Origin: Stenomitos rutilans HA7619-LM2
GTDB taxonomy: Bacteria; Cyanobacteriota; Cyanobacteriia; Leptolyngbyales; Leptolyngbyaceae
Assembly (NCBI GenBank): GCA_019358945.1
Contig: JAHHIE010000023.1
Coordinates: 1-64,000, forward strand
DNA length: 64,000 nt
Direction of reading: 5' to 3'
Below are positions 5,199-14,399 of the stretch, piece by piece; positions within the stretch are counted from its first letter, which is position 1; every line of letters starts with the position of its first letter. A program made the translations under genes and the position numbers. The notes below the pieces were generated by a model. The model had not been told where the DNA came from. It was given only the letters and a program-made list of their open reading frames with translations, and did no database searches.

Positions 5199-6081
5199 CT
5201 TAGAACCCGCCTGAAAAGCCGCTCGATAGAGTAAAGGGGTCGATTAGAGACCCCACAAATGACACGACTAGCTTGCCGTAGCGACCTCACCTCTGCCCAG
5301 TGGAACCTGCTTGCACCTCATATTCCTGCGGCAAAACCCGGTGGACGACCGCGAACATTGAATCTGCAAGAAGTGTGCAATGCCATCTTCTCTTCATCCG
5401 CAATGATTGCCAATGGCGCGACTTAACCCCACGACTTTCCGAAGTGGCAAAGCGTGTGCTCCTACTTTCACCTTTGGAGTAAAGACGGGACTTGGCAGAA
5501 GCTCAATGACCTGTTGCGGGTGCAAGTTCGCGAACAAGCCGGACGCAAGGCACAACCGAGTGCAGGGGCAGTATTGACAGTCAATCGGTCAAAACCGCAG
5601 GCAAGGCGGACGAGAAGGGCTTTGATGGTGGTAAGAAAATCAAAGGACGCAAGCGCACGATTTTGGTTGATACGATGGGGTTGCTCCTGGCGATATGCGT
5701 CCACAGCGCTGGTCGCTCTGACCATGCGGAGCTGACCTTGTTGACGTTCTTCTGCGCCTCGCTCTGGTCGTGCCTGCAACTGATTTGGGTCGACAGCACC
5801 TTTGGCGGCAAGGACTTTATCGCGAAGGTCAAGCAGCGCTACGGTCGGAAGTTGGAAGTGGTCAAACGCTCCGATGACGTTAAGGGCTTCGTCCTGCTGC
5901 CCAAGCGGTGGGTGGTTGAGCGCACTTTCTCTTGGCTGGAACATTTTCGTCGCCTCCGTAAGGACTACGAATACTTGCCAACTCGTAGTGAAGCCATGAT
6001 CTACGCGGCGATGGTGCACCTCATGCTCAGGCGTTTAGCGCCTGCTGATGCAACTGCTTAACTTTTCAAACCGCTTCTAAG
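5199..6081 (+). mobile_element. inactive IS5-family (IS427-like) insertion sequence with terminal inverted repeats
   Basis: The left end at 5199 reads CTTAGAACCCGCCTGAAAAG and the right end, read on the minus strand from 6081, CTTAGAAGCGGTTTGAAAAG; they match at most positions over about 22 bp. Between them lies a broken transposase gene. The IS is about 883 bp, the usual size for this group. A further CTTAGAAG motif at about 5174 just outside the left end hints at an older or nested end. Confidence 0.7.
5259..6061 (+). pseudogene. IS5-family transposase gene with several frameshifts
   Basis: From the ATG at 5259 the frame reads MTRLACRSDLTSAQWNLLAP and continues to CNAIF before shifting. 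Homology resumes in other frames as NDCQWRDL, then FHLWSKDGTWQKLNDLLR, then GLLLAICVHSAGRSDHAELT, and finally an intact C-terminal part (from about 5663) with WVDSTFGGKDFIAKVKQRYG and WVVERTFSWLEHFRRL, which holds the last acidic catalytic residue region. At least three frame changes separate these blocks, so no full-length enzyme can be made without frameshifting. One programmed frameshift is known in some IS5 members, but this many indicates decay. Confidence 0.8.
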
Positions 6082-7064: not shown

Positions 7065-7877
7065 ATGGCAATGACACGATCGCCGCTTCCATTACCTGCA
7101 TGGTTGCATTGGTTAGAGACATGCCCCAGCACAAACACCTGGTCGATCGCGCATCTTGCCAAATTGCAGCATGGTGATGTCGTCTTTACACCACGGCAAA
7201 CGGCTGGACGTGGGCAGCATGGGCGCAGTTGGTACTCACCAGAAGGCGTATTAACAGCAAGCTTTGTGTTAGAAGTTCCCGTTGCCCAATTACCTGTTAT
7301 TAGTCTGGGGGCAGGATTAGCAGTGATTTATGCGGTTGAAGATTCGCTACCAGCCTTGCAAGGCGTGCTGCAATTGAAATGGCCCAACGATGTATTGTTA
7401 GAGGGTCGAAAACTGGCAGGCATTTTGTGCGAAGCCAGTGCTCACGGTAATATGAGTCGCGTTGTCGTCGGGATTGGGTTGAATCGTCAGGTGGAGTTTG
7501 AGCAAGCGGAGTTGAATGAACGCACGATCGGTCAGGCTATTAGTTTGCACCACGTTTCGCCAGTGGTACCCGAACCGCTTTTGCTGCTAGAACGCTTACG
7601 CCATTATTTGCTCCAGACAGCAGGCTTGCTGCAATCAGCATCGAATGATCCGTTAGGCAGTGCCCAATTAAACGCATTGCTGCCCGCACTCCGCAGTCGA
7701 GATGCATTACTGGGCCAACCTATCACAGTTGAATTGAATGGCGGATGCATTGCAGGTGAAGCGGCTGGCATCAGCGATCTTGGTCATCTCCTGTTGCAGC
7801 TTCCTAATGGTGAAGTGCGATCGTTCGTTTCAGGACACATTCTTTGGCAGCAGCGTGGGGGGCGATCGTCGTATTGA
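7065..7877 (+). CDS. birA: biotin--[acetyl-CoA-carboxylase] ligase
   Basis: BirA attaches biotin to the carrier protein of acetyl-CoA carboxylase in the cytoplasm via biotinyl-AMP. The 270-residue product is the catalytic type without the N-terminal DNA-binding domain of E. coli BirA. Diagnostic motifs are PSTNTW near residue 21, the biotinoyl-AMP loop GRGQHGRSW at about 48-56, KWPNDVLLEGRKLAGIL at about 105-121 with the catalytic Lys in GRKLAG, and VVVGIGLNR at about 133. The C-terminal SH3-like domain covers about 220-265. It could also start at the ATG at 7071. It is monocistronic as far as can be seen. Confidence 0.9.
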   Translation: MAMTRSPLPLPAWLHWLETCPSTNTWSIAHLAKLQHGDVVFTPRQTAGRGQHGRSWYSPEGVLTASFVLEVPVAQLPVISLGAGLAVIYAVEDSLPALQGVLQLKWPNDVLLEGRKLAGILCEASAHGNMSRVVVGIGLNRQVEFEQAELNERTIGQAISLHHVSPVVPEPLLLLERLRHYLLQTAGLLQSASNDPLGSAQLNALLPALRSRDALLGQPITVELNGGCIAGEAAGISDLGHLLLQLPNGEVRSFVSGHILWQQRGGRSSY

Positions 7878-8157
7878 AATTGCTAATGCAATGAATGTAG
7901 AACGTTTCGAGGCTGGAGGTGGAGCGATCGAGACGACATGCTAGTCTGATCTATCAACGGAGGAAGAACAGGGCTGTTAGATGAAACCTTAGCTCCCGGT
8001 ATTAATCAGCAGAACTGACGGATAACACCCCAAAAACATGGAATTAAGCAGCAGGTCTTCTGCATAATTCCTTAAAAGAGGGTACTATCCCACCACTTTG
8101 ACAAATAATTCTGAAGAAATGGGTGCTTATCCAGCGGATCTGACACTTAATACATAG
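7878..8157. other. spacer between birA and the cassette-like VOC unit, with one imperfect hairpin
   Basis: No gene is recognised. An imperfect 15-bp inverted repeat lies at 8040-8054 and 8057-8071 (GGAATTAAGCAGCAG against CTTCTGCATAATTCC), without a T-run. The spacer ends in the GTTATAC core site at 8157-8163. The sequence directly left of that site lacks the paired arms of an attC, so it looks like a bare target or secondary recombination site. Confidence 0.5.
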
Positions 8158-8786
8158 TTATACGCCATGTGAATGTCACATGCCGGACGTTTCTGGTCAA
8201 GAATGAGAGGAAATGATATGGCTCTTAAGCGCATGGACAACGTTGGCATCGTGGTGGAATCCCTCGACACCGCCATCTCTTTTTTCGCCGAGCTTGGTAT
8301 GAAGCTCGAAGGGCGAACCACGATCGAAGGAGAATGGGCCGGGCGCGTCACCGGACTGGGCCTCCAGCGCGTCGAGATCGCCATGATGGTCACTCCCGAT
8401 GGACACAGTCGGCTCGAGCTCTCTCGCTTTCTTACCCCGCCTGTAGTCGCTGATCACCGGAACGCCCCGGTGAACGCGTTCGGCTACCTCCGCGTCATGT
8501 TCACCGTGGACGACATCGACGAGCTGCTTGCCAAGCTCTGCAAGCGCGGCGCACAGCTCGTTGGCGAAGTGGTGCAGTACGGGGACTCGTATCGGCTCTG
8601 CTACATCCGCGGCCCCGAAGGACTGCTCATCGGGCTCGCCGAGCAACTTGGGTAAAGCGTCCCCATAGAGGCGCAGAAGCGCACGTGCTTTGCGGCAAGC
8701 GAACGGCCGTTGGGATACTTTCATTGGCGTATAACAATCGGTTGCAGCGGACGACCCGCTGCGCGGCCCATCGCTGAACCGGAGCG
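8158..8786 (+). mobile_element. integron-type gene cassette carrying a VOC-protein gene
   Basis: A 629-bp unit is bounded by identical GTTATAC heptamers at 8157-8163 and 8786-8792, which fit the GTTRRRY core consensus cut after the G. It contains one gene, in plus orientation, followed closely by an attC-like site, which is the standard cassette layout. Base composition is markedly GC-richer than the flanks and no GCGATCGC octamer occurs inside it. No integrase gene is visible in the window, so capture was either by an integrase encoded elsewhere or through an ancient event. Confidence 0.7.
8218..8655 (+). CDS. VOC-family (glyoxalase/bleomycin-resistance fold) protein, cassette-borne
   Basis: The product (145 aa) is a single-chain vicinal-oxygen-chelate protein made of two beta-alpha-beta-beta-beta modules. 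It starts MALKRMDNVGIVVESLDTAI, has ELGMKLEGR in the first module and FTVDDIDELLAKL at the start of the second, and ends with YIRGPEGLLIGLAEQ, where the family often has the metal-ligand Glu. Family members bind divalent metal and act on small molecules as lyases, isomerases, dioxygenases or drug-binding proteins; the substrate here is unknown. The ATG at 8218 follows GAGAGGAAATGAT. GC-rich codon use differs from the neighbours, in line with transfer as a gene cassette. Confidence 0.85.
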   Translation: MALKRMDNVGIVVESLDTAISFFAELGMKLEGRTTIEGEWAGRVTGLGLQRVEIAMMVTPDGHSRLELSRFLTPPVVADHRNAPVNAFGYLRVMFTVDDIDELLAKLCKRGAQLVGEVVQYGDSYRLCYIRGPEGLLIGLAEQLG

Positions 8787-8792
8787 TTATAC
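8729..8792 (+). other. attC-like recombination site
   Basis: The site opens with R'' GTATAAC (8729-8735) and closes with R' GTTATAC (8786-8792), an exact inverted pair. Inside, CGGTTGCAGCG pairs with CGCTGAACCG (read on the other strand CGGTTCAGCG) except for one extra G in the left arm. That single unpaired base is the extrahelical residue typical of attC sites. The central part (GACCCGCTGCGCGGCC) can also fold. Spacing from the VOC stop codon is 73 bp and the total length is 64 bp, both normal for attC. Confidence 0.8.
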
Positions 8793-8881
8793 CACTAGAT
8801 CGCGATGGGGACGGAATTGAGAGGTTATTGATGAAATGTCACTGCTGGTTGAATAAGTTTAAGTTTTGGCTTAAGGCGTAG

Positions 8882-8900
8882 CCACATCATTCTGATGTGG
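8882..8900. terminator. hairpin downstream of the TetR gene
   Basis: CCACATCA (8882-8889) and TGATGTGG (8893-8900) form an 8-bp stem with a 3-base loop, 10 bp beyond the stop of the minus-strand TetR gene. No U-run follows in the minus-strand direction, so termination strength is uncertain. Confidence 0.45.
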
Positions 8901-8909
8901 GCAAGATCG

Positions 8910-9566
8910 CTATCCAGCAATAGATTCAATCTGGAAATACTGCCTTAAGTAGGCAATGAGTAGCTTCTTGGTTTCTACAAGAACTTGTTGCCTGAAATGA
9001 CGATCGCGAGTCAGTGAGAGAATTTCCAGCACACTACCTACTTCCACGCTGACGATCGCAATGAGATCTCGTTGCTCTGGTTCAAGTAAAGGATTACGAA
9101 CCGCAAAAAAGTCTGCTAGCTGCTGGACAATGGCTTGATTAAACGCTGTATCCATCGACAGAATTTCGGTTGAGATCAGACGCGACTGAACAAAAACGGC
9201 TCGATAGCCAGGATTCGCTGCAACGAAGCGATCGAAGGCATCAATCATGTGATTAATGTAGTCCTCAAGCGGCAGGTGAATCGTTTCATCCGTGTGCAGG
9301 GCTGTGAATAGTTCCTGCAATTGGTTGAAATAGCGATTGGCTAAGGCATGAAAGACTGCCAACTTATCTGGAAAAAAGCGGTATAGCCCACCGACCGACG
9401 TATTTGCCTGGGCTGCAATATCGTCTGTGGTCACCGCATCGTATCCAACCTCAGCAAATAGTGCTGCTGCCGCATCCAAAATGCGATCGAACCGCTCTCG
9501 ACTGCGTGCTTGTTTGGGCAGTCGCCAGCGAGGTGCTTGAGGTGCTTGCTCAAATGTTTCAGCCAT
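8910..9566 (-). CDS. TetR-family transcriptional regulator
   Basis: The 218-residue product has the TetR_N DNA-binding domain at about residues 20-65, with DRILDAAAALFAEVGYDAVT, DDIAAQANTSVGGLYRFFPD as the HTH, and then DKLAVFHALANRYF. The C-terminal two-thirds is the helical ligand-binding and dimer domain, whose inducer cannot be read from sequence. It is divergent from the cytochrome P450 gene across a spacer of about 100 bp carrying two copies of one palindrome, so it very probably represses that promoter and its own. It lies between the two attC-like sites. Confidence 0.85.
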   Translation of the reverse strand: MAETFEQAPQAPRWRLPKQARSRERFDRILDAAAALFAEVGYDAVTTDDIAAQANTSVGGLYRFFPDKLAVFHALANRYFNQLQELFTALHTDETIHLPLEDYINHMIDAFDRFVAANPGYRAVFVQSRLISTEILSMDTAFNQAIVQQLADFFAVRNPLLEPEQRDLIAIVSVEVGSVLEILSLTRDRHFRQQVLVETKKLLIAYLRQYFQIESIAG

Positions 9567-9580
9567 AGCTCAAAGTTGGG

Positions 9581-9631
9581 TTGACAAACGCGAGGTTTAT
9601 CTCGTATTTTGAAGTCACGAGGTTTATCTCG
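9581..9631 (+). promoter_or_regulatory. P450 promoter with two copies of a TetR-type operator
   Basis: TTGACA at 9581-9586 and TATTTT at 9605-9610, 18 bp apart, make a near-consensus promoter for the P450 gene. The identical sequence CGAGGTTTATCTCG occurs twice, at 9591-9604 within the promoter spacer and at 9618-9631 just past the -10 box. Each copy has CGAG...CTCG dyad symmetry, and the copies start 27 bp apart. This layout fits repression by the adjacent TetR protein. Confidence 0.75.
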
Positions 9632-9670
9632 CGTTCTTAAGTCTACTGTACTGCAATGGAGGAAGCGACT

Positions 9671-10846
9671 GTGCAACAAAATTCTCAACGGCTCGAAACC
9701 AAACCAGGCGCACCCCAGTTTGACAATCTCCTTGCCTGGCATACCGGACAGCTTTTTGACGGTCTCTTTGCCTGGTATGCCGAGATGCGCCGTCATCCCG
9801 TGTTCTATGACTCTGGGCGTGAAAGCTGGATGGTGTTTGGCTACCAGGATGTGAAACGAGTGTTCAGCGATTGGCAAACTTTTTCCTCCCGCATTCCCCA
9901 TCCACCCGATCAAACCGACTTCACTCAAAGCCTTAACTTCACCGATCCACCCAAACATCGATCGCTCCGTTCTCTGGCTCAACAGGTCTTCACTCCCCAT
10001 CGAGTGGAGAAACTTGCTCCCCGGATGACTGCAATCACCCATGAACTGCTCGATCGCGTGGTCGAGCAAGGTCAGATGGATTTCATGCATGACTTGGCGA
10101 CTCCTGTGCCGATTATTGTCATTGCCGAAATCTTGGGCATACCTCTAGAAGACCGTGAGGATTTCAAACGCTGGTCTGATGGCATCGTTACCTTTGACCC
10201 CACTGCCCTGCAAGCGATGGCTGACTACTTCCGTGACTTGATTGGGCAGCGTCGAGGCAAACCGCGTAACGACTTAATTAGCGATTTGATTGCGGCCCAC
10301 GAGGGTGGAGAAAAGCTGACGGCTCAGGAGCTTGTGGATTTCTGCATTGTGCTCCTCGTCGGCGGGAACGAAACAACCACCAACCTGTTAGGAAATGCGA
10401 TCCTCTGCTTCAACGAATACCCGCAGGCGTTTGAGCAGTTGAAGCATGAGCCATCCTTGCTGCCACTGGCGATCGAAGAAGTCTTGCGCTACCGATCGTC
10501 GATTCAAGCCATGCAGCGAATGACCATAACAGAGACGCAACTCGGCAATCAAATGATTCCGCCTGGACAGATCGTGACGGTTTGGCTGGGTGCTGCCAAT
10601 CGAGACGAGACGCAGTTTGAGCAAGCGGAAACGTTTGTGGTCGATCGCAATCCCAATCCCCATCTTGCTTTTGGCAATGGAATCCACTTTTGTTTGGGTG
10701 CGCCCCTAGCTCGCCTGGAAGGAAAACTGGTGCTACAGGCAGTCCTGGAGCGATTGCCAAATCTGCAAATCGATCCGACTGCGGCGCTGGAATTCATTCC
10801 CTCTAGCGATATCCACGGAGTCAAATCTCTACCCGTTTTGTTCTGA
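9671..10846 (+). CDS. cytochrome P450
   Basis: This soluble class I-type bacterial P450 (391 aa) needs an external ferredoxin and reductase, and none is encoded nearby. The I-helix oxygen-binding motif is LVGGNETTTN, the K-helix ExxR is EEVLRYR, and the haem-binding loop is FGNGIHFCLGAPLAR with its thiolate Cys. I prefer the GTG at 9671, which has GGAGGAA 6-12 bp upstream, over the in-frame ATG at 9656, which overlaps that site. The substrate is unknown. It heads a likely operon with the DUF5367 and GAP membrane-protein genes and is probably controlled by the divergent TetR gene. Confidence 0.9.
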   Translation: MQQNSQRLETKPGAPQFDNLLAWHTGQLFDGLFAWYAEMRRHPVFYDSGRESWMVFGYQDVKRVFSDWQTFSSRIPHPPDQTDFTQSLNFTDPPKHRSLRSLAQQVFTPHRVEKLAPRMTAITHELLDRVVEQGQMDFMHDLATPVPIIVIAEILGIPLEDREDFKRWSDGIVTFDPTALQAMADYFRDLIGQRRGKPRNDLISDLIAAHEGGEKLTAQELVDFCIVLLVGGNETTTNLLGNAILCFNEYPQAFEQLKHEPSLLPLAIEEVLRYRSSIQAMQRMTITETQLGNQMIPPGQIVTVWLGAANRDETQFEQAETFVVDRNPNPHLAFGNGIHFCLGAPLARLEGKLVLQAVLERLPNLQIDPTAALEFIPSSDIHGVKSLPVLF

Positions 10847-10882
10847 TTCATTCAACTCACAACACTTTTAACGGAGGCAATC

Positions 10883-11323
10883 ATGCAAACTGTAACGAAG
10901 GAAATAATGACAGAGAACCGCGGTATCCGCATCTCCTACGGGTTCTTCTTCGGCATGAGTTTTCTGATCTGGCTGAGCGCAACGGTGGTGCTGCGGTTGT
11001 GGGGACATACCTTTTTTATGCCTAACAACAATGTGAGCATGGTTAGCAATTTCCTGTTCTCCCTGACTTTTCTGCCGCTGCTGGTTCAGGCAATTTTGCG
11101 ATGGCAGAAAGTGCCGCCGCATCAGCGCTTGGAGGCTGCTGTTTGTCTAGCCATTCCTGGAATGCTGCTCGATGTTGCGACAACCTACTTTTTCACCCAC
11201 GCTTTTCCAACTATTTTGCCGATTGCTGCTGGTGCCTTTGGTGCGTGGTTGCTTTGGGGCTGCGCGATCGTGCTGTTAACAGGACTGATCACAAGTCACA
11301 GCAGTAAATCACAGTCCCTATAG
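10883..11323 (+). CDS. DUF5367-like four-helix membrane protein
   Basis: The product (146 aa) has four predicted transmembrane segments at about residues 18-40, 52-70, 82-102 and 108-130, with a short charged start and a polar C-terminus. The segment YGFFFGMSFLIWLSATVVLR resembles the DUF5367 family of small bacterial membrane proteins of unknown function. A good ribosome binding site (ACGGAGG) precedes the ATG at 10883, 36 bp past the P450 stop, which suggests a shared transcript. Involvement in export or handling of the P450 substrate or product is only a guess from context. Confidence 0.65.
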   Translation: MQTVTKEIMTENRGIRISYGFFFGMSFLIWLSATVVLRLWGHTFFMPNNNVSMVSNFLFSLTFLPLLVQAILRWQKVPPHQRLEAAVCLAIPGMLLDVATTYFFTHAFPTILPIAAGAFGAWLLWGCAIVLLTGLITSHSSKSQSL

Positions 11324-11359
11324 CCATTGCCTGAGATGCCAGAATGAGGAGTTATTAGA

Positions 11360-12037
11360 ATGTCACTGCTAAGTTATCTGGTAGCGATCGCCGCGATTGA
11401 TAGTCTCAATCCGACTGCCACTGCAATTCAGGTTTATTTATTGACGACTCCTAAACCTGTCAGTCGATCGATCGCCTTCATTACTGGCATCTTTTTAGCG
11501 TACTGGATGGTCGGCTTGTGCGCGACGCTGGGACTTGCCAGATTCATCCAGTGGGTATTGGCGACTCAGGGTGAGTGGGTGGATGTCATGCAGTTCGTGT
11601 TAGGGATCGCGCTGCTTTACACAGGGTATGCTCTCAATTCACCCACTCACGCGAATCAACCCGTCAAAAGCGAGCCTAATTCGCTACAGCCGATTCACAC
11701 GTTTTTACTGGGCACAAGCGTCACACTTTTAGAGACTCCCACCGCGTTTCCTTATCTTGCCGCGATCGAGCGGATTGCTCGTACCAAGCTCAGTTTGCTC
11801 GACCTGGCAGGATTTTTAGGAATCTACAACTTCGTGTTTGTCATGCCCTTAATTGGATTGCTAGGCATTTACATTGTCTTCCAAAGCAGGAGTACCAAAC
11901 TTTTAAAGCGGGTTAATCAAGCGATTACAAAGTGGTCGCCTAAAATTCTGCGGGTGTTGCTGCTGCTAATGGGTGCTTTTCTCTTAGCTGACAGCAGTGC
12001 AGCCATTTTGGGTCGTCTACTGCGATCGCTGCAATGA
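11360..12037 (+). CDS. GAP-family (LysE-superfamily) membrane protein
   Basis: The 225-residue protein has about six transmembrane helices. Its opening LLSYLVAIAAIDSLNPTATA and the later LLGTSVTLLETPTAFPYLAA match the GAP (Sap, sulfolipid-addressing-like) family, related to LysE/RhtB transporters, in which a pseudo-duplicated three-helix unit carries conserved Asp and Pro residues. Members are thought to move small or lipid-like molecules across the membrane. It follows the DUF5367 gene by 36 bp, so P450, DUF5367 and GAP probably form one operon with a modification-plus-transport theme. Its stop is 28 bp before the second attC-like site. Confidence 0.75.
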   Translation: MSLLSYLVAIAAIDSLNPTATAIQVYLLTTPKPVSRSIAFITGIFLAYWMVGLCATLGLARFIQWVLATQGEWVDVMQFVLGIALLYTGYALNSPTHANQPVKSEPNSLQPIHTFLLGTSVTLLETPTAFPYLAAIERIARTKLSLLDLAGFLGIYNFVFVMPLIGLLGIYIVFQSRSTKLLKRVNQAITKWSPKILRVLLLLMGAFLLADSSAAILGRLLRSLQ

Positions 12038-12065
12038 GCTGAGCTAGATTTTAGGTAAAAGAGCG

Positions 12066-12151
12066 GTATAACTAGCGCATTGCGGCGGACTCATTCAAAC
12101 CCGAAGCATTGCAACAATTCTTACCGCCGCTGAACGCAATAATTGTTATGC
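12066..12151 (+). other. second attC-like recombination site
   Basis: R'' is GTATAAC at 12066-12072 and R' is GTTATGC at 12145-12151 (GTTRRRY); they are inverted with one transition. The inner arms GCATTGCGGCGG (12078-12088 region) and CCGCTGAACGC (12128-12137 region) pair with G-U allowance around one unpaired G in the left arm, at the same position as in the site at 8729. The total length is 86 bp. It follows the GAP gene stop by 28 bp, as an attC follows its cassette gene. Confidence 0.65.
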
Positions 12152-12242
12152 TGCAGTCCTTCAGTGGTAGCAGCCAGAAGATCATCGGCGAAAACTTCAG
12201 TGCTAAAATTTGCCTGACGGTCGGTTGAAATAAAATCATTTC

Positions 12243-12800
12243 ATGCTTACTCAATTCACGCTAGAAACGACCAGATTGATCCTGCGCCCCTTATCCCTTG
12301 AAGATGTGCCGTCAATTCAATGTGTGGCGAGTCGTCGTGAAGTTGCCGATACTATGATTTCTATCCCTCACCCATATCCTAAAGATGAGGCGGAGCAATA
12401 CCTACGAAGGCGAATTGCAGAGTTTAAGGCAGGGTCTTTAGTTTCATTTGCAATTGAACGCAAATTTGACAAGGCATTTTGCGGAGTTATCGAGATTCGA
12501 GATGTTGAAAAAGAGCATTCTCAAGCTGAATTGAGTTTTTGGTTGGCAGTTGAGGTGTGGGGACAAGGGTATATGAGCGAGGTCTTAAAACCTATGCTTC
12601 GCTTTGGATTTGAAAATTTAGATCTCAATAGACTTTATGCTTATCACATGACTAGAAATTCAGGCTCAGGCAAAGTATTGCAGAAAAATGGGTTTGTACA
12701 AGAAGGGTTGCTGCGTCAGCGAGTACGAAAATGGGGAGTGTTTGAAGATGTAAAGTTATGGGCAATTTTGCGAAGAGATTGGCATAGCGAAGTGGCGTAA
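12243..12800 (+). CDS. GNAT-family N-acetyltransferase (RimJ/RimL-like)
   Basis: The product (185 aa) opens with FTLETTRLILRPLSLEDV, typical of the RimJ/RimL branch of acetyl-CoA-dependent acetyltransferases. The acetyl-CoA-binding region is at about residues 95-130, with WLAVEVWGQGYMSEVL holding the Q/R-x-x-G-x-G/A-type loop, and the family ending motif NSGSGKVLQKNGFVQEG follows. Substrates in this branch include ribosomal proteins, other protein N-termini and antibiotics; none can be chosen here. It starts 92 bp after the second attC-like site, and sequence at its stop codon resembles the first half of another attC, so it may be a gene cassette. Confidence 0.85.
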   Translation: MLTQFTLETTRLILRPLSLEDVPSIQCVASRREVADTMISIPHPYPKDEAEQYLRRRIAEFKAGSLVSFAIERKFDKAFCGVIEIRDVEKEHSQAELSFWLAVEVWGQGYMSEVLKPMLRFGFENLDLNRLYAYHMTRNSGSGKVLQKNGFVQEGLLRQRVRKWGVFEDVKLWAILRRDWHSEVA

Positions 12801-12820
12801 CAACCCGGTCAGAACGGACT
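12795..12820 (+). other. possible truncated attC left half
   Basis: GCGTAAC at 12795-12801, overlapping the GNAT stop codon, is followed by AACCCGGTCAGAACGGAC, a layout like the R''-L'' half of an attC. No complementary right half or GTTRRRY site can be found before malQ (a GTTAGCG near 12873 does not fit). If real it is a remnant. Confidence 0.3.
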
Positions 12821-12875
12821 GCTGAGAAACCTAGGTGTTGTCGCAAAGGCTATCAATAACCGCTTAATCGAAACG

Positions 12876-14399
12876 TTAGCGACTGTAGAGTTGCGTAAGC
12901 GCGAGGAGTCGATCGCTCAACGTCTGCGTCAATTGTTCAGAACTGCGGTAGCGCCAACGCCAATTGCCATCATTATGGCTGGGGTCATTCATCCGGGCGC
13001 GGCCGTCTAAATCCAGCAGATCTTGTAAGGGAATAATGGCTAGATCGGCAACAGAGGCTAAGGCTGTACGAATGAGCAGCCAATTAATGTCAGGGATGTC
13101 ATCAGGTGAGGTGTAGCCAAAGTACTTCGCCAGAAATTGTTTCTCGGCTTCACTGGCTTGTTGCCACCAACCAATGACGGTGTCATTATCATGGGTGCCG
13201 GGATACACCACCGTATTGCGCACATAATTGTGTGGCAGGTAAGCATTACCCGGATCATCGCCAAAGGCAAACATAAGAATGCGCATACCGGGAAAGTCAA
13301 AGCGATCGCGCAAGGCTTCCACTTCGGGCGTAATGATGCCGAGATCTTCTGCCAGAATCGGCAACGTTCCCAGTGCCTTTCCCAGCGCTTCAAAGAATTG
13401 CTCGCCCGGTGCTTGAATCCATTTGCCATTAATCGCAGTCTCTTCACCAGCAGGCACTTGCCAATAGGCTTCAAACCCGCGAAAGTGATCAACGCGGACA
13501 ATATCCACGTATTGCAACGTCACTTGGAAACGCTTAATCCACCAGGCAAAATTTGTTTTTTGTGCCTGTTCCCAGTTGTAAACTGGGTTGCCCCAAAGCT
13601 GCCCGGTCGCGCTGAAATAATCGGGTGGCACGCCTGCAATAAACGCAGGTTCAAAGGTGTTTGGATCAAGTTTGAACAGATCTGGAGCTGCCCACACATC
13701 GGAGCTGTTATGGCAAACGTAAATGGAAATATCGCCAATGATTTTGATGTTTTTACTGTTCGCATACTGACGCAATTTTCGCCACTGCTCGAAGAAGATA
13801 AACTGCAAAAATTGATGAAATTGAATGCTGTCCTGTAATGCTTCTTTTTGGGCTTTGATGGCATCAGGATCGCGGCGTGCGATCGCAGTCTCCCACTGAT
13901 GCCAACTTTTTCCACCGTTGGCTTCTAACAACGCCATAAATAACGTGAAATCGTCCAGCCAGGAGGTTTGTTCCTGGAGAAATTGGGTGAATTGCGTCGT
14001 TTGTCCAGATGTGGTTTGTTCAGACGATCGCGCTTTTTGAAAGCGATCGTAGGCCAGCTTCAGCAAGTGCATCTTGTGCGAAATTACGCGATCGAAGTTG
14101 ACCTGATCGAGATTGTCGTCTGCAATCGGAGTTAATTCGTTTGCCTCCAGCAATCCATCACTGACAAGCTGTTCCAAATCAATCAGCAGTGGATTGCCTG
14201 CAAAAGTGCTGAAGTTCATGATGTACGGCGAATGCTCGTAGCCCGTCGGCCCCAAAGGCAAGACCTGCCATAACGTTTGACCGCTGTTTGCCAAAAAATC
14301 CACAAATTCATAAGCGGCTTTGCCTAAATCGCCAATCCCAAATTGGCTGGGTAGAGAAGTTGGGTGGAGCAAAACACCACTTGCACGTTGAAAAGCCAT
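12876..14399 (-). CDS. malQ: 4-alpha-glucanotransferase (amylomaltase)
   Basis: MalQ (EC 2.4.1.25) moves alpha-1,4-glucan segments between maltodextrins in glycogen breakdown. The 507-residue product is the usual bacterial GH77 length. It opens with RASGVLLHPTSLPSQFGIGD; the catalytic nucleophile Asp lies in VDIVRVDHFRGFEAYW, the acid/base Glu in ILAEDLGIITPEV and the transition-state Asp in YPGTHDNDTVIGWW. It is divergent from the trehalose synthase-maltokinase gene across a 305-bp spacer, which places two glucan/maltose enzymes side by side and suggests coordinated use of maltose and maltodextrins. Confidence 0.95.
   Translation of the reverse strand: MAFQRASGVLLHPTSLPSQFGIGDLGKAAYEFVDFLANSGQTLWQVLPLGPTGYEHSPYIMNFSTFAGNPLLIDLEQLVSDGLLEANELTPIADDNLDQVNFDRVISHKMHLLKLAYDRFQKARSSEQTTSGQTTQFTQFLQEQTSWLDDFTLFMALLEANGGKSWHQWETAIARRDPDAIKAQKEALQDSIQFHQFLQFIFFEQWRKLRQYANSKNIKIIGDISIYVCHNSSDVWAAPDLFKLDPNTFEPAFIAGVPPDYFSATGQLWGNPVYNWEQAQKTNFAWWIKRFQVTLQYVDIVRVDHFRGFEAYWQVPAGEETAINGKWIQAPGEQFFEALGKALGTLPILAEDLGIITPEVEALRDRFDFPGMRILMFAFGDDPGNAYLPHNYVRNTVVYPGTHDNDTVIGWWQQASEAEKQFLAKYFGYTSPDDIPDINWLLIRTALASVADLAIIPLQDLLDLDGRARMNDPSHNDGNWRWRYRSSEQLTQTLSDRLLALTQLYSR

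Follow-up and report, generated by a model that had tools for sequence, protein, structure and literature searches.

In the 64,000-nucleotide stretch of DNA analysed here (the window), the interval between birA and malQ is very probably a relic chromosomal integron, that is, an attI site followed by an array of three gene cassettes, whose own integrase gene, intI, is gone. An integron is a gene-capture site, and a cluster of attC sites lacking an integron integrase is termed a CALIN. The locus holds attI, three G|TT boundaries and, in its first cassette, an attC of intact structure; relatives carry the same locus empty, and no intact intI was found in the genome (Table 1). The initial annotation had described a lone cassette carrying a VOC gene; this cassette is real but is the first of three, and its left junction is an attI site rather than arbitrary DNA.

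Table 1. Coordinates in the window of the birA-malQ locus and its integron-derived features
Feature	Position	Strand	Details
birA (biotin protein ligase), chromosomal, left of insertion	7065..7877	+	Pfam PF03099, PF02237
Spacer where intI expected	7878..7992	.	no recognisable intI remnant
attI site, crossover after G8157	7993..8157	+	165 bp; 28 homologous copies in family genomes
Cassette 1: VOC gene and attC	8158..8786	+	629 bp, 60.1% GC; 5' end complementary to own R''
VOC ORF (glyoxalase/bleomycin-resistance superfamily), 145 aa	8218..8655	+	PF00903, E 2.8e-10
attC of cassette 1, short type, with the bottom strand recombinogenic	8726..8792	+	fold; covariance model (CM) 45.6 bits
Cassette 2: TetR (-), cytochrome P450, DUF5367, SfLAP, attC	8787..12145	+	3359 bp
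TetR-family regulator, in cassette 2	8910..9566	-	PF00440, PF17918
Cytochrome P450, in cassette 2	9656..10846	+	PF00067, E 2e-38
DUF5367 protein, in cassette 2	10883..11323	+	PF17329
SfLAP-family protein, in cassette 2	11360..12037	+	PF11139
attC of cassette 2, partly decayed	12063..12154	+	CM 24.6 bits, E 4.6e-4 in window
Cassette 3: GNAT acetyltransferase and attC	12146..12875	+	730 bp; between two same-orientation attCs
GNAT acetyltransferase ORF, 185 aa	12243..12800	+	PF13302, E 4.6e-32
attC of cassette 3, partly decayed	12792..12883	+	CM 34.4 bits, E 1.3e-6
malQ (4-alpha-glucanotransferase), chromosomal, right of insertion	12876..14399	-	PF02446

The VOC cassette and its origin

Judged by its sequence, cassette 1 is a real integron gene cassette that lies in a cyanobacterial chromosome and ends in a complete attC. 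Read as the bottom strand, 8726-8795 (the attC starts at 8726 when the extended R'' is included) folds with -19.0 kcal/mol and a z-score of -2.97 relative to shuffles, with the R and L helices paired and one unpaired base. Fold and covariance model agree that R''/R' and L''/L' are complementary and that the extrahelical base lies in L''. The initial annotation had claimed arms that pair except for one extra base and had proposed a covariance-model check; in agreement with it, a home-made model with rough E-values, trained on 20 attCs from other genomes with the window attC left out, matched the same interval with 45.6 bits (E 1.6e-9). In addition, GGCGTATAAC at the attC start (8726-8735) and GTTATACGCC at the cassette start (8157-8166) are perfectly complementary. 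This 10/10 match, compared to a mean of 7.7 and a maximum of 9 for shuffled targets, is the signature of a circular cassette, as the circular form requires.

Other arguments made for this cassette at the outset fared unevenly. The GTTATAC cores said to bracket a GC-rich gene are present at 8157 and 8786, with the complement of the heptamer at 8729-8735, and the gene's base composition does differ from that of the flanks (60.1% versus about 52% GC). As GTTRRRY-type ends, these cores hold only in part because GTTATAC breaks the strict consensus at position 5. The heptamer occurs six times in the window versus 2.66 times expected, which is not significant alone, and we dropped its count as evidence because it is not enriched by itself. 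Similarly, the HIP1 octamer GCGATCGC is indeed absent from the 629 bp, but 58 copies per 64 kb predict only about 0.6 in this length, and this uninformative absence was also dropped. The lack of enrichment of GTTATAC would suit a reading in which chance inverted repeats surround an ordinary, vertically inherited VOC gene; however, the covariance-model E-value, the 10/10 complement and, as described below, the empty locus in relatives and the rarity of the gene in cyanobacteria all speak against it, leaving this reading next to no probability.

The attC of cassette 1 is 64 nt long versus about 86 nt for most cyanobacterial attCs found, and the cyanobacterium G030 has an attC 89% identical to it. 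We note that two viral contigs (L176, 18-81; L177, 6136-6199) carry one short attC each, near-identical to those of G030 and the window. The region of this attC gave no match to plasmids, and a scan of the window with Rfam, which may or may not hold an attC family, gave no match. For the encoded VOC protein, the closest solved structure is that of a glyoxalase-family protein (PDB 1ss4, E 1.3e-73).

Relatives of the VOC protein with 81-90% amino acid identity occur in many phyla, and only 2/145 cyanobacterial genomes, the window genome counted, have the gene at E<=1e-15. From this rarity, we consider that the VOC gene is foreign to this cyanobacterium. The entire block is absent between birA and malQ in two same-genus genomes (G005, G001). 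Close relatives had been anticipated in proteobacterial integrons; instead, the closest cassette-borne ones that we found are in Chloroflexota, with attCs that a regular-expression finder missed and the covariance model found. In the Chloroflexota metagenome-assembled genome (MAG) L091, an attC (32.6 bits) lies behind the VOC gene, and the DNA is 82.7% identical to window 8172-8727, a span that takes in the leader, the gene and the trailer as far as the attC. In a second Chloroflexota MAG, L029, a VOC gene (89% amino acid identity) is flanked by attC-like sites arranged as in an array (23.5 and 18.3 bits), and a third attC-like site is visible by eye. Thus, one VOC cassette body is associated with different attCs in different phyla. 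Because the VOC relatives lie in cassette contexts in Chloroflexota, transfer of the cassette across phyla, in either direction, is likely, and the VOC cassette probably derives from cassettes in circulation among Chloroflexota as well. A search of phages for the VOC gene gave three distant matches only.

The attI site, the array and the empty locus

A DNA search in relatives recovered a repeat whose copies end at the start of a cassette in many genomes. When 28 copies were aligned, the majority base was mostly at 0.8-1.0 up to G|TT and dropped to ~0.3-0.5 only a few bases further on. G018 (L134/L111) has this sequence ~100 bp away from a divergent, near-full-length intI (with one TAG, counted in the family search), and the attI regions of other intact cyanobacterial intI genes end in a similar motif, e.g. 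TAATAAATA|GTT. Because the repeat is conserved to G|TT, neighbors intI in G018 and resembles the motif at other intI loci, we identify 7993-8157 as attI. The alignment ruled out that the VOC cassette is an orphan inserted at a random site. On the plus strand of 7880-8920, a scan restricted to the consensus found no sigma-70-like site for a cassette promoter Pc. As a separate observation, attI regions beside intact cyanobacterial intI genes (L109-L128) have tandem palindromic repeats between intI and the crossover; in L110 (2592-2790), these are about five repeats of ~40 bp (TTAGGCAGA..TCTGTCTAA).

The right edge of the insertion is equally well defined. Six of six same-genus genomes have malQ with 81-91% identity, and in G005 and G001 birA and malQ are convergent neighbors with nothing between them. 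These two genomes match the window as far as the end of birA and again from exactly 12876 onwards; this second point, the right edge of the insertion, is the G|TT of the cassette 3 attC (12875/12876), where the malQ stop codon adjoins the crossover. G003 has a different insertion between birA and malQ, ending in an attC beside malQ, and both G002 and G003 (L202, L201) have another type of attI downstream of birA, unlike the window genome. The content of G002 and G003 therefore indicates that integron material entered this locus repeatedly, or that its attI was replaced. Upstream of birA, ORFs in window 5454-6061 look by eye like a putative broken IS5-like transposase.

We also considered that the cassette entered a secondary chromosomal site of the attG type, with no attI involved, as a lone attC without integrase (SALIN). 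Such insertions have been reported, at least as Loot et al. 2024 is cited in PMC12444791 and PMC12690207, the genome has no integrase, and the edge of the block exactly at G|TT by malQ could itself be such a site. However, the 165 bp at the left junction have homologues at 28 other sites, all of which end in G|TT with different DNA beyond, and the VOC attC is one of three; accordingly, we regard this origin as very improbable.

Treating the DNA to the right of the VOC cassette as host DNA was ruled out by the presence of a second cassette there. In G013 (contig C246, L209), the genes for TetR, P450, DUF5367 and SfLAP have the same order, with a 68.6-bit attC behind them; DNA homology to the window begins exactly at 8786 and extends over 3259 bp with 77.8% identity. 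This gene order and this start of homology show that 8787-12145 is one large cassette. Of note, this cassette (counterpart L209 881-4095) is unusually large, carries a divergent TetR gene of its own and a P450 gene among its four genes, and is present in two genera. The complement between cassette start and R'' is 9/10 for cassette 2 and 7/10 for cassette 3, within the control range, and the attCs of both fold no better than shuffles, unlike the VOC attC. Their low model scores (24.6 and 34.4 bits) and poor folding weigh against the integron reading of the whole array. Because only its attC still folds well, and because it has a foreign composition and adjoins attI, the VOC cassette is suggested to be the youngest of the three.

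Dispersed attI sites in a genome without an intact integrase gene

The initial annotation had noted that no integrase was visible, and the genome-wide search agrees: no IntI above the family cut-off was found in this 99.9%-complete draft of 119 contigs, the gaps of which could hide an intI. IntI proteins above the cut-off are present in 29/42 genomes of the family and in 49/146 cyanobacterial genomes. By contrast, attC model matches occur in 106/146 cyanobacterial genomes; the 40/146 that lack a match act as the model's negative control. These counts suggest that across Cyanobacteria cassettes are more widespread than full integrases (106 versus 49 of 146). The window genome itself has about 49 attC matches (E<=1e-3) on about 30 contigs and at least 10 cassette-bearing attI-like sites, two of which (on C39 and C92) have intI remnants. 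Covariation in the attC helices was 0.464 versus 0.170 in shuffles, for an alignment fitted to the model, which favors structure.

Three of the attI sites of this genome (L230, L232 and L236, on C4, C54 and C3) share a near-identical left unit of ~200-250 bp (92-98%) and a similar right end (GTTATGTCTGAAAATCCTCG) and are followed by different cassettes. Part of the left unit recurs without attI in G003, and the repeated unit is possibly a small mobile element carrying attI. The right end GTTATGTCTGAAAATCCTCG resembles by eye part of a tRNA-Phe gene, a candidate match.

Our working model for the window locus is that an integron integrase was once encoded in the genome and acted in cis or in trans, and that each cassette would have been captured by recombination between attI and the folded bottom strand of its attC, the VOC cassette probably arriving last. 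With the loss of intI, the array would have become frozen unless an integrase acting in trans remobilises its cassettes. A tblastn search of the spacer between birA and attI (7878-7992) with 20 cyanobacterial IntI proteins gave no match, and because the spacer has no trace of intI, we infer rather than observe that the gene once stood at this very spot. In a variant that is compatible with the core of the model, intI was never at the locus, and an attI platform that already lacked intI, or that rode on a small repeated element, came to lie beside malQ, its cassettes being captured by an integrase in trans. The lack of an intI trace here, the at least 10 attI sites with cassettes but no intact intI in the genome, and the three attIs that share a left unit yet have different cassettes are all consistent with this variant. 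On the other hand, the window attI lacks the repeated unit, the remnants on C39 and C92 fit decay in situ, and the same type of attI in G018 is still beside intI. We consider the variant unlikely. A broader scenario, to which we assign a slightly smaller chance still, is that of a distributed integron in some cyanobacteria, with the enzyme no longer tied to the capture sites: many dispersed attIs and cassettes would have no integrase of their own, some attIs would be copied around the genome on small repeats, and the integrase would act only in trans or transiently.

What appeared to be an orphan cassette thus becomes a series of events comprising capture at attI, the likely passage of a cassette body between phyla and loss of the integrase. 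With attI, attC and the empty locus identified, together with candidate integrases in related genomes, the system is testable.

Relation to known integrons and CALINs

Cyanobacterial cassettes without a visible integrase had been called little described, which applies only to the details: reviews already list cyanobacterial integrons (PMC8618304), and an attC model specific to Cyanobacteria has been published (PMC8352920). A limited search of the open-access literature turned up no paper with cyanobacterial integrons as its subject. Decay of the integrase is frequent among integrons (PMC2426708, PMC3108266), and CALINs and their remobilisation in trans have been described (PMC9668308).

The window locus resembles sedentary chromosomal integrons (e.g. 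the one with intI annotated on a Kovacikia minuta plasmid, H24) in having attI, cassettes in the same orientation, attCs with R and L boxes and an extrahelical base, and a G|TT crossover. It differs from them in having only three cassettes, two of them with decayed attCs, and no intI genome-wide; compared with a complete integron, it has attI and lacks a functional intI. Like a CALIN, it has at least two attCs <4 kb apart (8726, 12063 and 12792, by the home-made model) and no intI, but it keeps attI at the start of the array, a feature that the usual CALIN definition does not demand. With the SALIN/attG insertions of Loot et al. 2024, as far as these are described in the papers citing them, it shares a chromosomal cassette without a nearby integrase; here, the left junction is attI and not a secondary site, and there are three attCs instead of one. 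The Chloroflexota VOC cassettes have a homologous gene and, in L091, also the leader and trailer; their attCs belong to a different, longer type (112-135 nt), whereas the window attC is of the 64-nt type found in G030 and the two phage contigs. We conclude that the window locus is a decayed case of known integrons and CALINs, and that the unusual aspect is the number of attI platforms without integrase. Less expected are the three attIs on a near-identical unit with different cassettes and the large, regulated P450 cassette.
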